This document shows positions 4,345-15,208 of a DNA stretch of 64,000 nucleotides, in pieces (the stretch's first letter is position 1; every line of letters starts with the position of its first letter). The DNA lies in NCBI RefSeq assembly GCF_000218895.1, contig NC_015703.1:5097001-5161000 (forward strand), given 5' to 3'. The notes beneath the pieces were generated by a model. That model saw nothing but the letters and a program-made list of their open reading frames with translations, was not told the origin of the DNA and did no database searches. This DNA comes from Runella slithyformis DSM 19594. Lineage in GTDB: Bacteria; Bacteroidota; Bacteroidia; Cytophagales; Spirosomataceae. A program made the position numbers and the translations under genes.

Positions 4345-4941
4345 CTAGTTTCTGCGGGCGATCTCATCCCGAATCTTAGCCGCTTTTTCGTATTCTTCAT
4401 TGCTGAGTGATTCGTCCAAAATACGGTGCAGTTCGTCAAGGCTCATGTTTTTGATTTGCTCACTCAGTGAGCGCGGTTTTGACTGTTGCACGATTTCTTC
4501 AATAGCGTCGTCCGGTTCTGATTGCGAACCGGACACAATTCCCGCTTCCGATAAAATGGTTTCGTAGGTATAAATGGGTACACTGAATCGTAAGGCGATG
4601 GCGATGGCGTCGGAAGGGCGGGCATCCACGACCGTTTCCCGCAGTCCGTCTGCGCCGGAGCAATGAACCCGGGCAAAAAAGATACCTTCGCGCAGATCAG
4701 AAATGATGATTTCGTTAACGGTATAATTGAAGGCCTTGGCAAATGACTTGAACAGGTCATGGGTCATAGGGCGATTGGGCTGAATTTTCTCAATCTCGAT
4801 CGCAATGGCCTGAGCTTCAAACATTCCTATAATAATGGGCAAACGCCGGTTGCCGTACTCTTCTCCAAGCACCAAAGCGAATGAACCTGCCTGCGACTGA
4901 CTCGGTGAGAGCCCCAAAATTTCCAATTTAATTTTTTCCAC
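4345..4941 (-). CDS. Bifunctional nuclease (BFN/DUF151) with UVR motif
   Basis: A 198-residue protein. Residues 1-135 carry the BFN (DUF151) domain: LGEEYGNRRLPIIIG and the VVDARPSDAIAIALR signature are visible. Residues ~160-198 form a UVR-like helical hairpin (SLDELHRILDESLSNEEYEKAAKIRDEI, seen as a pattern) of the type used by UvrB/UvrC for protein contacts. BFN proteins in plants have DNase and RNase activity; in Bacteroidota the BFN-UVR arrangement is common and its role is unknown. It is transcribed alone and ends at the shared terminator. Confidence 0.85.
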   Translation of the reverse strand: MEKIKLEILGLSPSQSQAGSFALVLGEEYGNRRLPIIIGMFEAQAIAIEIEKIQPNRPMTHDLFKSFAKAFNYTVNEIIISDLREGIFFARVHCSGADGLRETVVDARPSDAIAIALRFSVPIYTYETILSEAGIVSGSQSEPDDAIEEIVQQSKPRSLSEQIKNMSLDELHRILDESLSNEEYEKAAKIRDEIARRN

Positions 4942-4966
4942 TCGTTAGTTATGTTATCTTTTATCA

Positions 4967-4999
4967 GTTATCCGGTTACTGAAACAGGTAACGGATAAC
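4967..4999. repeat. Imperfect hairpin in 5' leader of the BFN gene
   Basis: The arms GTTATCCGGTTAC and GTAACGGATAAC pair with one unpaired base. It resembles low-complexity intergenic spacer repeats of the phylum rather than a recognised operator. Confidence 0.4.
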
Positions 5000-5028
5000 A
5001 ACTATTCTTTCAAAAAGCATGCAAAAAT

Positions 5029-5080
5029 AATAAACCTGCGGGGAAAATGGAAAGTTTTTCCATTCTCCGCAGGTTTATTA
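5029..5080 (-). terminator. Terminator of the etfBA unit
   Basis: A long inverted repeat (TAATAAACCTGCGG... / ...CCGCAGGTTTATTA, one bulge) followed on the minus strand by a T-rich run. It lies 66 bases downstream of the etfA stop. Confidence 0.7.
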
Positions 5081-5145
5081 ACGTCAGGAAGTACTTCAGG
5101 TGTTCCCGTAGGGAAAAGTTTATGAAAATTTATCCGGTGAATCCC

Positions 5146-6108
5146 TTATTTACCGTCTTTTACCGCCTTGGTCAATCGGGGTAAAATGTCAAAAACATCC
5201 CCCACGATGCCGTAATCAGCGGCTTTGAAGAACGGTGCTTCGGGGTCTTTGTTGATGGCTACGATCACTTTGGAAGAGTTGACCCCGGCCAAGTGCTGGA
5301 TAGCGCCCGAAATACCGCAGGCGATGTAGAGATTGGGCGCTACTTTGATGCCCGTTTGTCCGATGTGCTCGTGGTGAGGACGCCAGTCAAGGTCAGATAC
5401 CGGTTTGGAACAGCCCGTAGCCGCTCCCAAAGCACCCGCCAGATCTAACAAAGGCTGCCAATTGTCCGGCCCTTTCATGCCGCGCCCGCCCGACACGATG
5501 ATGTCGGCTTCGGTCAGGGACAATTCTCCGCTTGCTTTTTCTTCACCGGTAACCTTGGCAACAAAGTCGCCCTCGCTCAGGGCAGGGGTGAAGGCTTCGA
5601 CCGGGGCGCTTCCCGTACCTTCGGTGGCTTCCAGAGCATTTTTTTTGATGCCCAAAATTTTAACGGCACCTTTGACGTCTACCGTAGCAAAGGCTTTACC
5701 CGTATAAATACTGCGGGTAACTTTGAATCCGTTGGACAGGTCGGGTAATTCCGTCACGCCCGACACAATGCCTGCTCCCAACTTGGCGGCGGCGCGGGCC
5801 CCCATAGCGTCGCAAAGGCCTGATTTAGGCAGAATCACTACCTGTGCGTTTTCCTGTTTGACGGCAGCGGCCAACACCGAAGCATAAGCCATGGCGTTTT
5901 CATTGGTCAGTTCGCCGGCCGTGGCGTGCAGCACTTTGGCGGCTCCGTATGCACCGGCTTTGGCCAATTCCGCTTCGTCGGCAGTACCGATGGCCAGGGC
6001 GGTGGCAGAAGTTCCGGTTGCTTTGGCCACTTCCGCTCCGTAGGCTACGGCTTCCAACGACGTTTTTTTGATGCTTCCGTTATCTAATTCTACAAATATT
6101 AAGACCAT
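5146..6108 (-). CDS. etfA: Electron transfer flavoprotein subunit alpha
   Basis: A 320-residue alpha subunit of the soluble ETF dimer, which carries electrons from acyl-CoA and other dehydrogenases to ETF:quinone oxidoreductase. The C-terminal FAD-binding domain is well conserved: SGGRGMKG, CSKPVSDLDWRPHHEHIGQTG (read as motif pieces), YIACGISGAIQHLAG and VAINKDPEAPFFKAADYGIVGD. The N-terminal half has the nucleotide-fold strands. It follows etfB on the same strand after 123 bases. Family assignment is firm. Confidence 0.97.
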   Translation of the reverse strand: MVLIFVELDNGSIKKTSLEAVAYGAEVAKATGTSATALAIGTADEAELAKAGAYGAAKVLHATAGELTNENAMAYASVLAAAVKQENAQVVILPKSGLCDAMGARAAAKLGAGIVSGVTELPDLSNGFKVTRSIYTGKAFATVDVKGAVKILGIKKNALEATEGTGSAPVEAFTPALSEGDFVAKVTGEEKASGELSLTEADIIVSGGRGMKGPDNWQPLLDLAGALGAATGCSKPVSDLDWRPHHEHIGQTGIKVAPNLYIACGISGAIQHLAGVNSSKVIVAINKDPEAPFFKAADYGIVGDVFDILPRLTKAVKDGK

Positions 6109-6152
6109 TTCATTTTACATTTAGCAGTGAAGATTTTACATTTAACAGTAAT

Positions 6153-6223
6153 CATTTAACAATGAACATTGGGTTTAAAGCGGTTTTCAATTTCCTGCTT
6201 TTCTCAATGTTAATTGTTGAATG
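6153..6223. repeat. Imperfect inverted repeat between etfB and etfA
   Basis: Arms 6153-6171 and 6205-6223 match in 17 of 19 positions as reverse complements. The surrounding 6112-6175 stretch is a degenerate TTTACATTTA-type spacer. It lies inside a probable operon, so it may shape mRNA processing or merely be a repeat insertion. Confidence 0.5.
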
Positions 6224-6231
6224 TTCAATGA

Positions 6232-6969
6232 TTACAGTACTTTCGCTTCTGTTTTCAAAAGTGAAATAAGGGTTTCGGCTTGGTCTGCCGGAATCATTTT
6301 GCAGGCACCTTTGGGGGCCGGTAAGGTATATTGGTCGAGCGTGGCTAAGTCGTCCACGGCCACGGGGTCCACTACTTTGAGGGGCTTGGTACGGGCAGTC
6401 ATGATTCCGCGCATGTTGGGGATTTTCCATTCAGCAATGGGCTCTTGACATCCTAAAACCAACGGTAGGGGAGCTTCCAGAAATTCCTTACCGCCTTCGA
6501 TCTCCCGCGCAAACTTGGCGGTAGTGCCTTCGATGTCCAGCTTCATAACGGGCGAAAATGACGGGATTCCCAGCATCTCACCGACCAGTCCGTGCACCAC
6601 ACCGCTGTTGAAATCGATGGATTCGCGGCCCATCAGGATCAAGTCATAGCCGCCTTCTTTGGCAACGGCCGCGATCTGCACCGCCGTAAAATACGAATCG
6701 ATCGGATCGGCATTGACCCGGACGGCATCATCGGCTCCGATGGCTAAGGCTTTGCGGATCTGAGGGTCGCTTTCGGCTTCGCCTACGTTCAATACGGTGA
6801 TGCTGCCTCCAAGTTTTTCTTTTAATTCAACGGCCCGCGCCAAGGCGTAATCATCATAAGGCCCAATGATGTACTGAACTCCGGCTTTGTTAAGTTTGGT
6901 GTTGTTGTCCGTAAAACTGATTTTGGCCGTGGTGTCAGGTACATTTGTTATACAAACTAAAATTTTCAT
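6232..6969 (-). CDS. etfB: Electron transfer flavoprotein subunit beta
   Basis: A 245-residue beta subunit, the partner of the EtfA encoded next. It starts MKILVCITNVPDTTAKI, typical of EtfB, with the AMP-binding-type features GPYDDYALARAVELKEK, the DLILMGRESIDFNSGVV region and the domain II linker LVLGCQEPIAEWKIPNMRGIM (seen as motif pieces). It is the first gene of the two-gene unit, with a candidate promoter about 55-60 bases upstream. Confidence 0.97.
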   Translation of the reverse strand: MKILVCITNVPDTTAKISFTDNNTKLNKAGVQYIIGPYDDYALARAVELKEKLGGSITVLNVGEAESDPQIRKALAIGADDAVRVNADPIDSYFTAVQIAAVAKEGGYDLILMGRESIDFNSGVVHGLVGEMLGIPSFSPVMKLDIEGTTAKFAREIEGGKEFLEAPLPLVLGCQEPIAEWKIPNMRGIMTARTKPLKVVDPVAVDDLATLDQYTLPAPKGACKMIPADQAETLISLLKTEAKVL

Positions 6970-7023
6970 GTGCTTAACTTAATGGTTTGAAATATAACTT
7001 TTGGGAGATTTATTTTGTTGGTG

Positions 7024-7031
7024 CGAATATA
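7024..7031 (-). promoter_or_regulatory. Candidate -7 box for etfBA (TATATTCG on minus strand)
   Basis: One mismatch to TAnnTTTG. It lies in the divergent interval between etfB and the small TPR gene. Confidence 0.4.
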
Positions 7032-7052
7032 AAGCAAGGTTTTTAAAAATAG

Positions 7053-7060
7053 TATGCTTG
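7053..7060 (+). promoter_or_regulatory. Candidate -7 box for the small TPR gene (TATGCTTG)
   Basis: One mismatch to TAnnTTTG, 15 bases before the ATG at 7075, giving a very short leader. Confidence 0.35.
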
Positions 7061-7074
7061 CATAATAATTTTTT

Positions 7075-7401
7075 ATGAATAACGATCGTCTCGCCTTTTT
7101 ATGTCAATTCTTTGAGGAAGATCCCAACGATCCCTTCAATGCCTATGCACTTGCCATGGAATATCAACAAAGTGATGTGACCAAAGCGGCGCATTATTTT
7201 CAATTATTGCTCGAAAAACATCCCGATTATTTGCCCACGTACTACCACGCGGCGGCGCTGTTTGCGGAGTTAGAACAACTTAAGCAGGCTGAACAGGTAT
7301 ACCAAAAAGGAATGCAATTGGCTTTGAGTCAGCAAAATACCAAAACCTACCAAGAACTCCAGCGCGCGTACCGCGGTTTTCAGGACGAATACCTGTCCTG
7401 A
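7075..7401 (+). CDS. Small tetratricopeptide repeat protein
   Basis: A 108-residue all-helical protein with no signal peptide. About two and a half TPR units are visible: NDPFNAYALAMEYQQ, KAAHYFQLLLEKHPDYLPTYYHAAALFAELEQ (consensus W/L-G-Y-A-F-A-P spacing) and KQAEQVYQKGMQLALSQ. It is probably a cytoplasmic protein-contact module; the partner is unknown. It is divergent from etfB and ends before a repeat hairpin and a T-tailed hairpin. Confidence 0.8.
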   Translation: MNNDRLAFLCQFFEEDPNDPFNAYALAMEYQQSDVTKAAHYFQLLLEKHPDYLPTYYHAAALFAELEQLKQAEQVYQKGMQLALSQQNTKTYQELQRAYRGFQDEYLS

Positions 7402-7407
7402 ACAACG

Positions 7408-7468
7408 TTGGCGAGGTTTGGAACCCACAATGGAATTGCTCGCCAACGTTAGACTCGCCGACGTTATA
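7408..7468. repeat. Palindromic intergenic repeat (GTTGGCGAG...CTCGCCAAC)
   Basis: A 9-base outer stem encloses a GGTTTGGAACC inner pairing, and a third partial copy (CTCGCCGACGTT) follows. The GGCGAGGTTT core also occurs in the hairpin at 20332-20385. Confidence 0.5.
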
Positions 7469-7485
7469 CTAAAATATGTTAAACC

Positions 7486-7506
7486 CTGACACTTTGTCAG
7501 TTTTTT
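7486..7506 (+). terminator. Short hairpin CTGACA-CTT-TGTCAG plus T6
   Basis: A 6-bp stem with a 3-base loop followed directly by six T. It reads as a terminator for the TPR gene, but it also lies just upstream of the miaB -7 box and could be part of that promoter region. Confidence 0.5.
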
Positions 7507-7520
7507 CGCGGAATCTTTCG

Positions 7521-7528
7521 TAACTTTG
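7521..7528 (+). promoter_or_regulatory. -7 promoter box of miaB (TAACTTTG)
   Basis: A perfect match to TAnnTTTG, 65-72 bases upstream of the miaB ATG. It probably drives the whole miaB to lptE block. Confidence 0.6.
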
Positions 7529-7592
7529 CCCCAATTCACGGGGGAAGGGTATTTCCTGAATCCTTATGAACTAACGACCATTGACTGATAAA

Positions 7593-9050
7593 ATGATTAC
7601 TTCAACATTAAAAATACTTTCGGAAGCCGACAAAGAGGCGTGTGAACTGGTCAAAGTAAGCGAGGAGGAGTTGACCGTTGATAAAAAAAGGCTGTTCATC
7701 GAAAGCTACGGCTGTCAGATGAATTTTTCGGACAGCGAAATCGTGGCGGCCGTGATGCGAAATGCTGATTTTGCCACTACTTCTTCGGAAGATAGCGCCG
7801 ATGTTATTTTTCTGAATACCTGCGCCATCCGCGACAACGCCGAGCAAAAAGTGCGTAATCGTCTCCAATACCTCAATAATTTAAAGAAAAAGCGGCCCGG
7901 GCTGATCATCGGAGTATTGGGATGTATGGCAGAGCGTTTGAAAACCAAGTTGTTGGATGAAGAAAAAATGGTGGACATCGTGGCCGGACCTGATTCCTAC
8001 CGCGATTTGCCGCGTTTGGTGGAAGAAGCCGAAACGGGTCAAAAAGCCGTCAACGTATTTCTTTCCCGGGAGGAAACTTACGCCGATATTTCGCCGATTC
8101 GGTTGAATTCCAACGGAATCACGGCTTATATCAGCATCATGCGCGGGTGTGATAACATGTGCAGTTTTTGTGTGGTTCCGTATACCCGGGGCCGCGAGCG
8201 AAGCCGCGATCCGTTCAGTATTGTGGAAGAGGCGCGTTTGCTTTTTGCCGATGGATACAAAGAGGTGACACTCCTTGGACAGAATGTGGACAGCTATAAG
8301 TGGAAGAAGGAAACAGCCAAAGACGGAGAATCTACAGCCAATGCCCTTCCGGTCAGCTTTGCACAGCTGCTGGAAATGGTCGCGCTGATTCACCCCGACC
8401 TGCGCGTCCGATTCAGTACTTCGCATCCCAAAGATATCACGGATGATGTACTTTGGACCATGAAAAAGTACGAGAACATCTGCAAATACATTCATTTTCC
8501 CGCCCAAAGCGGCAACAGTCGCGTATTGAAGGTCATGAATCGTACCTACGACCGTGAGTGGTACATTCAAAAAATTGACCGCATCCGGGAGGTATTGGGG
8601 GAAGATTGCGGCATTTCAACCGACATGATCACGGGATTCTGCACCGAAACCGAAGAGGAGCACCAAGATACGCTTTCGTTGATGGAGTACGTAAAGTATG
8701 ACTATGCATACATGTTTGCGTATTCGGAGCGGCCCGGTACGCCGGCGGCAAAAAAGCTAAAGGATGATGTTCCGGAAGAGGTGAAAAAACGCCGTTTGCA
8801 GGAAGTGATCGCCGTTCAGCTGAAACATTCGAGTGAGCGCAATAAACTGGCGTTGGGAAAAGTCCATAAAGTATTGGTGGAAGGCCCATCCAAACGTTCT
8901 GAGGCCGATCTGTGCGGACGCAATGACCAAAATAAAGTGGTAATCTTCCCGCGTGAACATTATAAAAAAGGTGATTATGTTTATGTATTGGTAACTGACT
9001 GCTCTTCGGCGACCCTGCTTGGAAAAGCGGTGGAAGAAGTAACTGCCTGA
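7593..9050 (+). CDS. miaB: tRNA-2-methylthio-N6-dimethylallyladenosine synthase
   Basis: A 485-residue radical-SAM methylthiotransferase that converts i6A37 to ms2i6A37 in tRNAs. The ATG at 7593 is preferred over a TTG four codons upstream. The N-terminal UPF0004 domain has its three Fe-S cysteines ([25 protein letters not shown]). The radical-SAM CxxxCxxC motif is in [18 protein letters not shown]. The C-terminal TRAM domain spans the last ~65 residues. It is the first gene of a block that continues with a sigma-54 activator, lptE, a TPR gene and secG. Confidence 0.96.
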
Positions 9051-12570: not shown

Positions 12571-13200
12571 GGGGATACTAAATATGAGATCAGGGACTTT
12601 CTCCGGCCTCGTCTCTAAAATACATTATGCTTCGGTCTTGGTAATCTTCTTTCAACAGGGTCGAAACAACTGAAACAACGGCAGCGTGGTGAAATACCGA
12701 ATAGACTTTGTGGGTCATGCGGAGATTGAACGTGACCGAACCGGTGCCTGTGTAATAACTCGGAGCGCGGTTGTTTTTGCCATCGGGTTGTTTTTAGTTC
12801 TTCTTATCACGCAGGGTTGCAGGGAGCAGAGGTTTTTATTATACGTTTTTTTGTAGTGTTTGTTCCTTAACAACTCTGCACAGCCTGTTTTCTATTCTGC
12901 CTTCGCCTTTCAGGCCATTTTTACCATACATCTTATCGCATTGTTGCTCAGGTACTATTCGATTCAAAAACCTTTGGAGTCGATGCGCAGGTCCGTGATA
13001 TGTGGTTGGAACAGCCGGTGTATGCTTCCGAAAGCTGTGGACGTATAGGTACAGGTATTTAAAAGTAAGAATGTTAAAAGTAGAGCTGATTTATAGTAGA
13101 GAAAAGTTGTTTTCTTAAGATATTGGTTTTCAATACTTTTAATTGTTTTGTTTGTAAATATCTGAAAATGATCATGTTATAATTTGTAAATTAAGAAATT
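12571..13200. other. Gene-poor stretch with two weak coding remnants
   Basis: No intact gene is seen. On the minus strand 12793 to 12590 is open for about 67 codons with coding-like codon use but no start (it begins right after a TAA; it includes NRAPSYYTGTGSVTF and ends in RDEAGESP). On the plus strand, up to about 13061, a start-less frame reads FGVDAQVRDMWLEQPVYASE. Both look like tails of decayed genes, family not recognised. A cgcagggttgcagggagcag spacer lies near 12810. Confidence in the coding nature is low. Confidence 0.3.
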
Positions 13201-13207
13201 GATCTAA

Positions 13208-13221
13208 TATTTGCGCAAATA
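13208..13221. promoter_or_regulatory. Perfect 14-base palindrome before the Dam-like gene
   Basis: TATTTGCGCAAATA, 9 bases before the ATG at 13230, overlapping a plausible -7 region; a GATC lies at 13201-13204. It is a candidate operator for the methyltransferase gene. Function is inferred from position and symmetry only. Confidence 0.45.
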
Positions 13222-13229
13222 AATGTCAT

Positions 13230-13712
13230 ATGGATGCATCTTTTGAGCGCAGTGAAAACACAAAGGTAGAATGGCTTACTCCTCCTGAATTGGTTAAAAA
13301 ATTAGGGAATTTTGATTTGGACCCCTGTAGTCCCGTCAATGCTCCTTTCCTGCATGCCCGAACAAATTTCACCATTGAAGACAATGGTTTAACGAAAGAC
13401 TGGTTTGGGCGGGTTTACTTAAATCCACCTTATGGAAAAGGCATGGAATTGTGGTTGGAAAAGCTAAAAAGGCATGGTAACGGTATTTCACTGATTTTTG
13501 CCCGTACAGAAACTAAATGTTTCTTTGATCATATCTGGAATGACGCTGATGCGGTATTGTTTGTCAAGGGAAGAATCCGGTTTTACCATGTTTCAGGAAT
13601 ACAGGGAGGAACTCCGGGAGCGCCGAGTGTTTTTATTGCCTATGGAAAAGAAAATGCGTTGGCCCTTCAAAATGCCGATATTGAGGGGCGGTTTTTATTA
13701 CTGAAATCATAG
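13230..13712 (+). CDS. Phage-type Dam-like DNA N6-adenine methyltransferase
   Basis: A 160-residue protein of the phage N6-adenine methyltransferase group (PF05869 type). Visible signs: the N-terminal EWLTPPELVKKLGNFDLDPCS block (motif pieces), the catalytic VYLNPPYG in the DPPY/NPPY position, and C-terminal GTPGAPSVFIAYG. The family transfers methyl from SAM to adenine N6; several phage members modify GATC, but the specificity here cannot be read. Length is normal for the family. It converges on, and overlaps by 6 bases, a small gene that follows a DpnI-like endonuclease gene on the other strand. Confidence 0.85.
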   Translation: MDASFERSENTKVEWLTPPELVKKLGNFDLDPCSPVNAPFLHARTNFTIEDNGLTKDWFGRVYLNPPYGKGMELWLEKLKRHGNGISLIFARTETKCFFDHIWNDADAVLFVKGRIRFYHVSGIQGGTPGAPSVFIAYGKENALALQNADIEGRFLLLKS

Positions 13713-13910
13713 AATTTGATAGACGATAAATTCCGCAACATTAAATTCGGCATCGATAATCGAGTCATTTTCTATCAGGAGTTTTTTAATGGCTTCCTCC
13801 TCATTTTGTACATTTTCAACAATGCCTACGACCTGTAGGTTATTAATTTCATAGCGGGCATTGGGTGCTTGGGTTTTGCCTTCGGGGGTGATAATGATGA
13901 ATCGTTTCAT
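13707..13910 (-). CDS. Small protein downstream of the DpnI-like gene
   Basis: A 67-residue protein with predicted beta strands (MKRFIIITPEG, NNLQVVGIVENV) and an acidic helix (NEEEAIKKLLIENDS). It starts 28 bases after the DpnI-like stop on the same strand, so the two are probably co-transcribed. In Streptococcus pneumoniae the dpnC gene is likewise followed by a small gene, dpnD, of unknown role. The position is similar; sequence kinship to DpnD cannot be claimed from inspection. No function assigned. Confidence 0.6.
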   Translation of the reverse strand: MKRFIIITPEGKTQAPNARYEINNLQVVGIVENVQNEEEAIKKLLIENDSIIDAEFNVAEFIVYQIL

Positions 13911-13938
13911 GTTTGTAACTTTTTATATTGACCGTTTT

Positions 13939-14718
13939 CTAATGGTTTCCGTAACCCACTTTCTTGTATTTACCTCTGCCAATAAATTCAATAAACCCTC
14001 TGTCACGTAATACCTGAAGTTGCTGCCTTATTTTATCTTTGATAAAATTATTGTCTGGATGTTTCAATCGGAGCTGATCTTCAAATCGGTAAATATCTCC
14101 CAACGTAAAGGTCTCCTTTTTCAGTAAGTCAATACATAACAATAAATCCAACAGCCAACCTTTTATTTCGGACTTTTCCCTGCGTAGAAATAATGTTTTT
14201 TTGTAGGAGTCCTCGACAATTTTTTTGTCTACAGGAATTGAATCTTTTACTAAAAAAACTTTCCCTGCTTCTGCAATCGCTGAAATATCAATAAAGCACC
14301 CTACCCAGCCGGCTCTGCGGGCTGTTTCTGAAAGAGGGTTTCTTTTTATTATTTTCTCTGTAGTAAAAAAATGCTTGGGAATCACTAAAAAGTTTTCGAC
14401 CGACCATTTTTTTGAATAGGTTAAAAAGAAAAAATTAGGGTTTTGTTCGGAATTAATTCTCCCTATCATAGTAGAGTAGGCGCCATCATTTATGGTTGTC
14501 GGAAATTTTCCGTTTTTACTTTTCAGTTCATATTCTTCCAGACAGACTTGACAATAAAAATCGGCAACTGGCCTGTTATTTTCAAATTCATGCAAATGTA
14601 CTTCGCCGCAACAGGGGCAATAGGAGTTTTCCAACACCCAATTTTCGGTTAGAATCCTCGCTATTTGGGAGTTGCTCGAATAACCTTCTGCTAATTTTGT
14701 GTTCAGATGTAGGTTCAT
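13939..14718 (-). CDS. dpnC: DpnI-like methyl-directed restriction endonuclease
   Basis: A 259-residue protein closely resembling pneumococcal DpnI over its whole length. Shared blocks include NSQ.ARILTE.WV, FENNRPVADFYC, ELKSK.G, STINDGAY, NPNFFFLTY, ARRAGW.GC.IDIS and the end IRQQLQ.LRD.G.IEF.GRGKY. Catalytic residues fall at the same numbers: D53, E64 and K66. The zinc cysteines are C34, C37, C56 and C59. The C-terminal winged helix contacts methylated DNA in DpnI. By homology it cuts GATC only when adenine is methylated. A Dam-like methyltransferase gene lies head-on 227 bases away, which is paradoxical unless the two recognise different sites or are never active together. Confidence 0.95.
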   Translation of the reverse strand: MNLHLNTKLAEGYSSNSQIARILTENWVLENSYCPCCGEVHLHEFENNRPVADFYCQVCLEEYELKSKNGKFPTTINDGAYSTMIGRINSEQNPNFFFLTYSKKWSVENFLVIPKHFFTTEKIIKRNPLSETARRAGWVGCFIDISAIAEAGKVFLVKDSIPVDKKIVEDSYKKTLFLRREKSEIKGWLLDLLLCIDLLKKETFTLGDIYRFEDQLRLKHPDNNFIKDKIRQQLQVLRDRGFIEFIGRGKYKKVGYGNH

Positions 14719-14833
14719 TCTGTGAGGCTATTCAGGTCATTTGGGGTTGACAATGAGGTTTTTAGAAATGTTTAACGAAAAGATTTAAAACGGCAAATTA
14801 AAACTTTACATAGGTCAAGCCCTATTTCTTCCC

Positions 14834-15208
14834 CTATTTCAACTTCGCTTTTTCCAGATTCTCCCCGACTCTGAACCTAACAATTTGGGTGATAAGATCA
14901 AAGGGGAGGGGTTGATCGATCGGAAATTTGACGGTGCCTTTGGCCGTTTCAAAGCCCGAGAGTTGTTCTTTAAAAGCCTTAATGCCGGAAGGAGACGGAT
15001 AGAATCCGAAATGGGTTTTATAAGCTGCAAAATGCACCAAATTGCCGTGCAGGGTAAAGGTCGGGATGCCGTAGTTGATTTTCTCCGCTGCCTCCGGGGC
15101 CGCCTCCCGAATGGTCTGCCGCAGGTGCTCTAAAGTTTCCTGTACGTGGGCGGGAAAGGTGGAGATGTACGTATCAATGTCGCTGATTTTAAGGTCGTTC
15201 GTTATCAT
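14834..15208 (-). CDS. DUF1801 (YdhG-like) protein
   Basis: A 124-residue cytoplasmic protein of the DUF1801 fold. Recognisable features: DIDTYISTFPAHVQETLEHLRQTI (helical start), EKINYGIPTFTLHGNLVHFAAYKTHFGFYP (the conserved core; read as pieces) and GTVKFPIDQPLPFDLI. Related proteins include frataxin-like iron chaperone Fra/YdhG of Bacillus; other members have no known role. It stands downstream of the histidine kinase on the same strand but 96 bases away. Confidence 0.8.
   Translation of the reverse strand: MITNDLKISDIDTYISTFPAHVQETLEHLRQTIREAAPEAAEKINYGIPTFTLHGNLVHFAAYKTHFGFYPSPSGIKAFKEQLSGFETAKGTVKFPIDQPLPFDLITQIVRFRVGENLEKAKLK

Follow-up and report, generated by a model that had tools for sequence, protein, structure and literature searches.

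A conserved convergent cassette in Bacteroidota joins a DpnI-like nuclease to a Dam-family methyltransferase and may serve as a methylation-triggered self-destruct unit

The closest described relatives of the nuclease treated here are DpnI of Streptococcus pneumoniae, which the accessible text of PMC12707154 describes as one of alternative GATC cassettes; Drg of Neisseria, which is reported to cleave GmeATC and whose gene is located at, or inside, the dam locus (available portions of PMC4269198); and FcyTI, which is 58.7% identical to DpnI and, by the text accessible to us, cleaves Gm6ATC (PMC11037411). On unmethylated oligoduplexes FcyTI is reported there to give zero product, and its expression plasmid, toxic in Dam+ cells, transformed them more than 1,000-fold less efficiently than Dam- cells. 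For DpnI itself, a second site in the substrate improves the action of the enzyme, as stated in the accessible part of PMC4117772. The same portion of the FcyTI report (Helbrecht et al. 2024; PMC11037411) surveys more than 1,000 winged-helix fusion nucleases, 87% of which have no methyltransferase within three genes: some 6mA/4mC methyltransferases do directly adjoin DpnI-type genes, those singled out being frameshifted, the genomic conflicts number fewer than 100, with tight expression control proposed, and possible self-restriction is raised for the PLD-wH gene Aba4572I, which lies beside a methyltransferase with the predicted site CGATCG. On the methyltransferase side, Phi93 DAM of a Lactococcus phage makes Gm6ATC, as established by SMRT sequencing and DpnI/DpnII digestion (PMC4190342, in its accessible text). 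Methylation as a trigger has a precedent in retrons, where phage GATC methylation sets off defence, the writer being phage-borne and the target being retron DNA (PMC12548924, accessible portions).

The window analysed here, a stretch of 64,000 nucleotides, lies on a 6,568,739-bp contig of Runella slithyformis DSM 19594 (Spirosomataceae; genome of 6.92 Mb in six contigs) and carries, at 13230-14718, a cassette of three genes flanked by chromosomal genes of ordinary appearance (Table 1). Re-checking the open frames bore out the coordinates and strands given in the first-pass annotation, along with its remark that the methyltransferase gene runs head-on into a small gene 3' of the nuclease gene, here called SM; the two ends in fact overlap. 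PADLOC enters both enzymes as separate orphan parts, without a joint system. In S. pneumoniae DpnI is one alternative among cassettes, and in Neisseria drg is found at or inside the dam locus; the window instead has a Dam-family gene adjacent to the nuclease gene. Unlike in the DpnI cassette, the gene 3' of the nuclease is SM and not DpnD; and, in contrast to retrons, writer and reader would both be encoded by the cassette.

Table 1. Features of the cassette and its control region (positions within the window; residue numbers refer to the nuclease).
Feature	Position	Strand	Basis
Candidate methyltransferase promoter block	13163-13214	+	TGAAAATGATCA, TTTG, TGATC abutting TAATATTTG
Upstream GATC of the pair (31-bp register)	13170-13173		
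TTTG, -33-like box	13183-13186	+	by eye
Downstream GATC of the pair, touching the -7-like box	13201-13204		
TAATATTTG, -7-like box	13205-13213	+	by eye; TGATC abuts
Dam-like N6-adenine methyltransferase, 160 aa	13230-13712	+	PF05869, NPPY
Methyltransferase/SM end overlap, 6 bp, tail to tail, no intergenic room	13707-13712		
SM, small gene 3' of the nuclease, 67 aa	13707-13910	-	open frame; no match to known families
DpnI-like nuclease, inferred to be Gm6ATC-dependent, 259 aa	13939-14718	-	PF06044 and PF17726
PD-(D/E)XK domain (~1-180) and winged helix (~185-253)	nuclease 13939-14718	-	Pfam

The nuclease is a whole-length homologue of DpnI. It scores 258 bits against Pfam DpnI (PF06044) and 115 bits against DpnI_C (PF17726), both above the curated cut-offs, matches the PADLOC profile "Type II methyl-directed restriction enzyme" at 373 bits, aligns to DpnI in the PDB (4esj) across residues 1-253 (E = 4e-95) and is identical to it at 143 of 253 positions (57%, full length). 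The alignment agrees with the first-pass annotation in placing D53, E64 and K66 (catalytic) and cysteines 34, 37, 56 and 59, presumably the zinc ligands of DpnI, at DpnI's own numbers. These belong to a set of 18 checked positions, completed by S17, Q18, N48, D78 and R126, by L129, R135, W138 and G140 of the methyl cleft and by K229 and R231 of the winged helix, and all 18 are identical to DpnI, so that the catalytic, cysteine, base-contact and methyl-reading residues are as in that enzyme; the same 18/18 is found in the nucleases of genomes G161, G044, G171, G629, G891 and G1107. The roles of the residues in DpnI, the zinc role of the cysteines excepted, follow the accessible text of Mierzejewska et al. 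2014 (PMC4117772). Because all 18 are kept, and with FcyTI as precedent, Gm6ATC-dependent cleavage by the window nuclease is very likely.

The methyltransferase is the sole PF05869 ("Dam") match in its own genome (44.2 bits, cut-off 28.1), has the NPPY motif, and also matches the phrog_111 DNA methyltransferase and the PADLOC "orphan methyltransferase" profiles. It misses the NCBIfam phage_N6A_met cut-off (31.7 against 97.05 bits), which Phi93 DAM, a tested GATC enzyme scoring 117 bits against PF05869, narrowly misses as well (95.3 bits). The two share 39% identity over 114 aa (E = 5e-20), and the window enzyme is, like Phi93 DAM and the phage PF05869 enzymes, small and single-domain, with NPPY as a common motif. 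This homology, together with the GATCs of the promoter (see below), makes GATC the most economical guess for its target and probably the right one. In a tree of 28 methyltransferase rows, in which T1 sits at the end of a long branch and support is weak at several of the deeper forks, nine members from triads (methyltransferase, SM and nuclease together; G171 left out owing to a stop) form one clade with support 100/98, and the Phi93, HP1 and T1 methyltransferases, the latter two of which we take to be GATC enzymes, all fall outside it. Between the window gene and that of G161, pN is 0.082, pS 0.647 and dN/dS 0.058; three further pairs give dN/dS of 0.10-0.17 and the other pairs printed show synonymous saturation, G171 being excluded here too because of its stop. 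The single clade and the low dN/dS indicate that the methyltransferase is under purifying selection, maintained in working order where the nuclease is retained too. Two other Dam-like genes of the same genome, with D12 matches of 65.6 and 23.7 bits (both above the Pfam cut-off of 22), lie below the NCBIfam dam cut-off; the only PDB match of the 65.6-bit protein at E ≤ 0.01 is 7m6b, a site-specific adenine methyltransferase.

Among 222 genomes of the family, DpnI was matched in 12 (11 above cut-off) and the window methyltransferase, used as a protein query, in 15; the family counts for the methyltransferase are taken from the latter search, since the PF05869 profile (11/222) missed the window's own and other triad genes, its counts thus being lower bounds. 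The two enzymes occur together in four of the 222 genomes, against 0.74 expected (P = 0.003), namely in the genome of the window (G000), G161, G044 and G171, and in all four their genes are at most about half a kilobase apart with SM in between. G172 is a fifth triad of the family, with methyltransferase, SM and a different nuclease. A class-wide search for DpnI (10/395 genomes matched) adds triads in G629, G891 and G661, and a phylum-wide search with SM (5/395) adds G1107 and G1221, for a total of ten triads in the Bacteroidota families f1, f41, f73 and f74, to all of which the convergent layout is common. The first-pass annotation had allowed that the pair might be conserved in no relative; the convergent layout is present in nine other genomes. 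Both enzymes are intact in six of the ten triads (window, G161, G044, G629, G891 and G1107) and one is broken in three, all draft assemblies: the G171 methyltransferase has an early stop, the G661 nuclease an in-frame stop, and the G1221 nuclease is split across two frames.

The triad is rare and patchy, the DpnI gene being present in 2 of the 36 genomes of G629's genus, both already known (G629 and G661). Within the family of the window it occupies three chromosomal sites, one common to the window genome and G161, another common to G171 and G172, and a separate one in G044, from which we infer that the cassette moves between genomes. An order-wide search for the methyltransferase matched 10 of 390 genomes, three of them the known triads G000, G161 and G172; at the other seven loci DpnI, SM and DpnD are absent within about 1.5 kb. 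Not counted as triads are G117 and G595 (weak DpnI fragments), G695 (fragmented), G1233 (SM without partners) and a second, weak match in G1221.

As to carriers, a phage origin of the whole cassette was considered and rejected, an SM relative being unconfirmed in IMG/VR, the 40 IMG/VR relatives of the methyltransferase being at best 42% identical, and the nuclease giving one short winged-helix match in 50,697 phage records; so was plasmid carriage, the nuclease matching just two of 72,556 records, both from Neisseria. The 6.6-kb "Bacteriophage sp." record MT837571.1, from human faeces, encodes at 6353-6559 a DpnI-type winged-helix domain that is 54% identical.

The nuclease is the part of the cassette that changes. 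In G172 its slot (L055 7141-7935) is taken by a predicted PLD domain, DrmC-like in PADLOC, fused to DpnI_C (51 and 84 bits), which is the architecture of the PLD-wH nucleases described in the accessible text of PMC11037411. The C-terminal tails of this protein and of the G171 DpnI are identical; nine genes flanking the G172 cassette have counterparts of 92-100% identity around that of G171, where one further flanking gene is unmatched, and between the two genomes SM is 91% identical and the methyltransferase 99% over the 88-aa piece compared. In a DpnI tree, the seven triad proteins, placed among ten from DpnD loci, do not form one clade, and the supported branches force at least four changes of partner type; G661, G1221, G695, G647, G117, G595, L024 and L025 were left out as broken, partial or weak, as were G172 (PLD) and G159 (354-aa frame). 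With the swap in G172, and with the methyltransferases in one clade but the triad DpnI proteins not, methyltransferase (writer) and SM are the constant part of the cassette and the nuclease (reader) the swapped part.

SM has a homologue in all ten triads and no match above cut-off in Pfam, PHROGs, NCBIfam or PADLOC. Its AlphaFold2 model (pLDDT 92.5) has strands at residues 2-14, 21-34 and 62-66 and helices at 37-47 and 49-53, and the model finds no fold in the PDB at E ≤ 0.001. An identity with DpnD/PcfM (PF14207) was rejected, as the Pfam match is absent and a profile comparison with DpnD rows is unsupportive; this comparison is by sequence, the DpnD model being poor (pLDDT 63). The small genes at four non-triad DpnI loci (G143, G165, G041 and G128) do match PF14207. 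Homologues of SM also turn up in other company. In L021 (813-2000), from a Treponemataceae MAG, a DpnI-like gene is followed by an SM homologue and then by a methyltransferase on the same strand, of a different type (DHPW, N6_N4_Mtase, extra N-terminal region). In G1233 (L095 756-1761), a distant SM homologue stands directly 3' of a 243-aa protein without a Pfam family, DpnI and a PF05869 methyltransferase being absent within 1.5 kb.

Upstream of the methyltransferase gene is a candidate promoter block, the boxes of which were assigned by eye against the Bacteroidota consensus, the -7-like box having a 3-base gap instead of a 2-base one. The block is common to the first five triads, composed of TGAAAATGATC, TTG or TTTG at the -33-like place and TGATC abutting TAATMTTTG, and the motif has one copy in the window's genome. 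Its two GATCs form a pair in a 31-bp register (GATC-N27-GATC), a spacing of about three helical turns. The pair is found at most 100 bp upstream in seven of the ten triads (window, G161, G044, G171, G172, G661 and G1107), where a locus-matched Markov simulation expects 0 to 0.0014 per 100 bp; G000 and G161 form one close pair and G171 and G172 another, so that the seven loci are not seven independent events. Of the other three, G891 has two GATCs at a spacing of 12 bp, G1221 a single GATC, and G629 none in the 120 bp upstream. The pair is absent upstream in all five prophage-type methyltransferase relatives, and this, with their separate clade, sets the triad methyltransferases apart from the phage PF05869 enzymes.

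At the other end of the gene, the overlap with SM is exactly 6 bp in seven of the ten triads, the others having gaps of 4, 4 and 13 bp, and a strict terminator scan of the ten triads in both directions found none. Because of the tail overlap and the empty strict scan, converging transcripts are likely at this junction, notwithstanding a looser scan of the window that totals four sites against 1.8 expected; two terminator-like sites (+) fall within SM, at 13824-13840 and 13855-13871, and one (-) within the methyltransferase gene, at 13388-13371. These sites weaken the case for antisense control, as the one at 13388-13371 would stop antisense reads short of the promoter. Over a 400-kb sample, GATC itself occurs 3.2 times per kb (observed/expected 0.84), a density at which full methylation would give about 21,000 chromosomal targets for the nuclease; as eighth lowest of 16 palindromes and 20th lowest of 256 tetramers in the same 400 kb, it gives no clear signal of avoidance.

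The first-pass annotation knew of no such pairing as described. That is too broad, for adjacent methyltransferase and DpnI-type genes appear in the accessible text of Helbrecht et al. 2024 (PMC11037411); what we did not meet in the literature searched, mostly open-access and some of it available in part, is a conserved cassette of convergent genes that includes SM and the GATC pair. The portions of that survey open to us, PLD-wH nucleases included, describe no conserved SM unit, PF05869 partner or promoter GATC pair. On present sequences, the triads go beyond it in their intact, selected and repeatedly linked methyltransferases and in their candidate control element. The literature search returned no methylome paper for Runella slithyformis.

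Bacteroidota also hold operons resembling DpnM-DpnI-DpnD-DpnA, in which a D12 methyltransferase of the Dam subfamily likewise lies directly beside a DpnI-like gene, an apparent second kind of GATC conflict. In L014 (5033-7800), L015 (367-3107) and L063 (G143, 4464-8892), D12 methyltransferase, DpnI-like nuclease, DpnD and a DpnA-like beta methyltransferase stand side by side, the frames being full-length in L014 and L015 and the last gene broken up in G143; the nearest PDB entry to the L014 D12 methyltransferase is 2dpm, the DpnII methyltransferase. They differ from the triad in having all genes on the same strand, DpnD instead of SM, and D12 and beta-class methyltransferases, and in that none of the four loci examined has a GATC within 150 bp upstream of its D12 gene. 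In a Muribaculaceae MAG (L022 6940-8055), DpnD is fused in frame to a DpnA-like methyltransferase.

The paradox seen by the first-pass annotation thus stands: the conserved pair sets a nuclease of the Gm6ATC type next to a methyltransferase from a family in which the tested member makes Gm6ATC. A working writer and reader of one site would be incompatible in a growing cell, so either the methyltransferase marks another site or it is mostly off. That it marks another site, so that an ordinary Gm6ATC-dependent nuclease and an m6A methyltransferase with a role of its own would lie together without conflict, we regard as somewhat unlikely, even if just one member of PF05869 was found to have a tested specificity (PMC4190342), the triad enzymes branch apart from the reference enzymes, and several winged-helix nucleases adjoin methyltransferases of other predicted specificities (accessible text of PMC11037411). 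The association is long-standing and specific, with SM and the methyltransferase staying joined while the nuclease changes; the paired GATCs in the methyltransferase promoter point to GATC; and the Phi93 relative makes Gm6ATC (PMC4190342, as above). A neutral, phage-derived methyltransferase, carried as a passenger beside a solitary type IV nuclease, would suit the abundance of its relatives in phages (456 of 50,697 phage records), their position amid small phage-like genes in the family genomes (by eye) and the stop in the G171 copy; a single clade over four families, the low dN/dS and a layout and promoter that recur across triads render this very improbable. Ordinary restriction-modification, in which the nuclease would cut unmethylated GATC and the methyltransferase protect the host, can claim the usual layout of such systems, a nuclease beside a methyltransferase, and is just as hard to credit: every checked methyl-reading residue is kept in the nuclease, the replacement nuclease of G172 retains the DpnI_C winged helix, and, in the reports as accessible, FcyTI is inactive on unmethylated oligoduplexes (PMC11037411) and Drg cuts GmeATC (PMC4269198).

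Three things favor a writer that is mostly off: the promoter GATCs, the behavior of writer and SM as a unit, and the retention of DpnI_C through the nuclease swap. On these grounds the methyltransferase is rather more probably silent than active in growing cells. A rival reading is an epigenetic toggle, with the nuclease on and the DNA unmethylated in one state, the methyltransferase on and the nuclease off in the other, and both states held by convergent transcription and methylation of the promoter GATCs; such a toggle would be the counterpart, within one genome, of the DpnI/DpnII alternatives of pneumococcus. The tail-to-tail overlap and the two GATCs bracketing the -33-like box do resemble methylation-sensitive switches, of which pap is an example. 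We nevertheless hold a toggle to be distinctly unlikely: both transitions would expose methylated DNA to residual nuclease, and a repeat scan of 12900-14900 found no clean pair of invertible repeats enclosing the promoter, its top candidate being 31 nt with 74% complementarity (13052-13082/13134-13164).

The best reading, which we put forward tentatively, is methylation-triggered self-destruction, with killing as the function. Of the three options in the first-pass annotation, silencing of the methyltransferase and self-destruct are strengthened by the GATCs of the promoter and by the overlapping stop codons, and different sites keep the share given above, the target being judged by homology. 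The cassette looks like a conserved, transferable writer-plus-reader unit, the writer of which would have to be tightly controlled. The writer would make Gm6ATC and the reader would cut it; in growing cells the methyltransferase would be kept off through its GATC-bearing promoter, to which antisense transcription from the convergent SM/nuclease operon might add. Should control fail, for example because a phage turns off transcription in the host or brings a Dam that methylates the promoter, the methyltransferase would be expressed and would mark the GATCs of the chromosome and of the phage DNA, and the nuclease, already present, would cut both, so that the cell would die before phage release. 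Disarmed forms on both sides (the methyltransferase in G171, the nuclease in G661 and G1221) count for self-destruct; against this, any pair in decay would be expected to lose one enzyme or the other, and the assemblies with the broken copies are drafts. Also against it, the methyltransferase is only distantly similar to the tested GATC enzyme (the 39% given above), and the reference enzymes lie outside the triad clade. The three promoters that lack the 31-bp pair, the close kinship among the loci that have it, and the rarity of the triad weigh in the same direction. The full picture of a self-contained Bacteroidota suicide cassette, in which a two-GATC promoter, perhaps with antisense help, silences the writer until infection and switching the writer on kills the cell, is more tentative still.

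In the usual logic, modification marks and protects self, and modification-dependent nucleases are expected in genomes without the mark. If the reading of self-destruction is true, a cassette that encodes both the mark and its destroyer would need unusual control, and could be a defence of new design.
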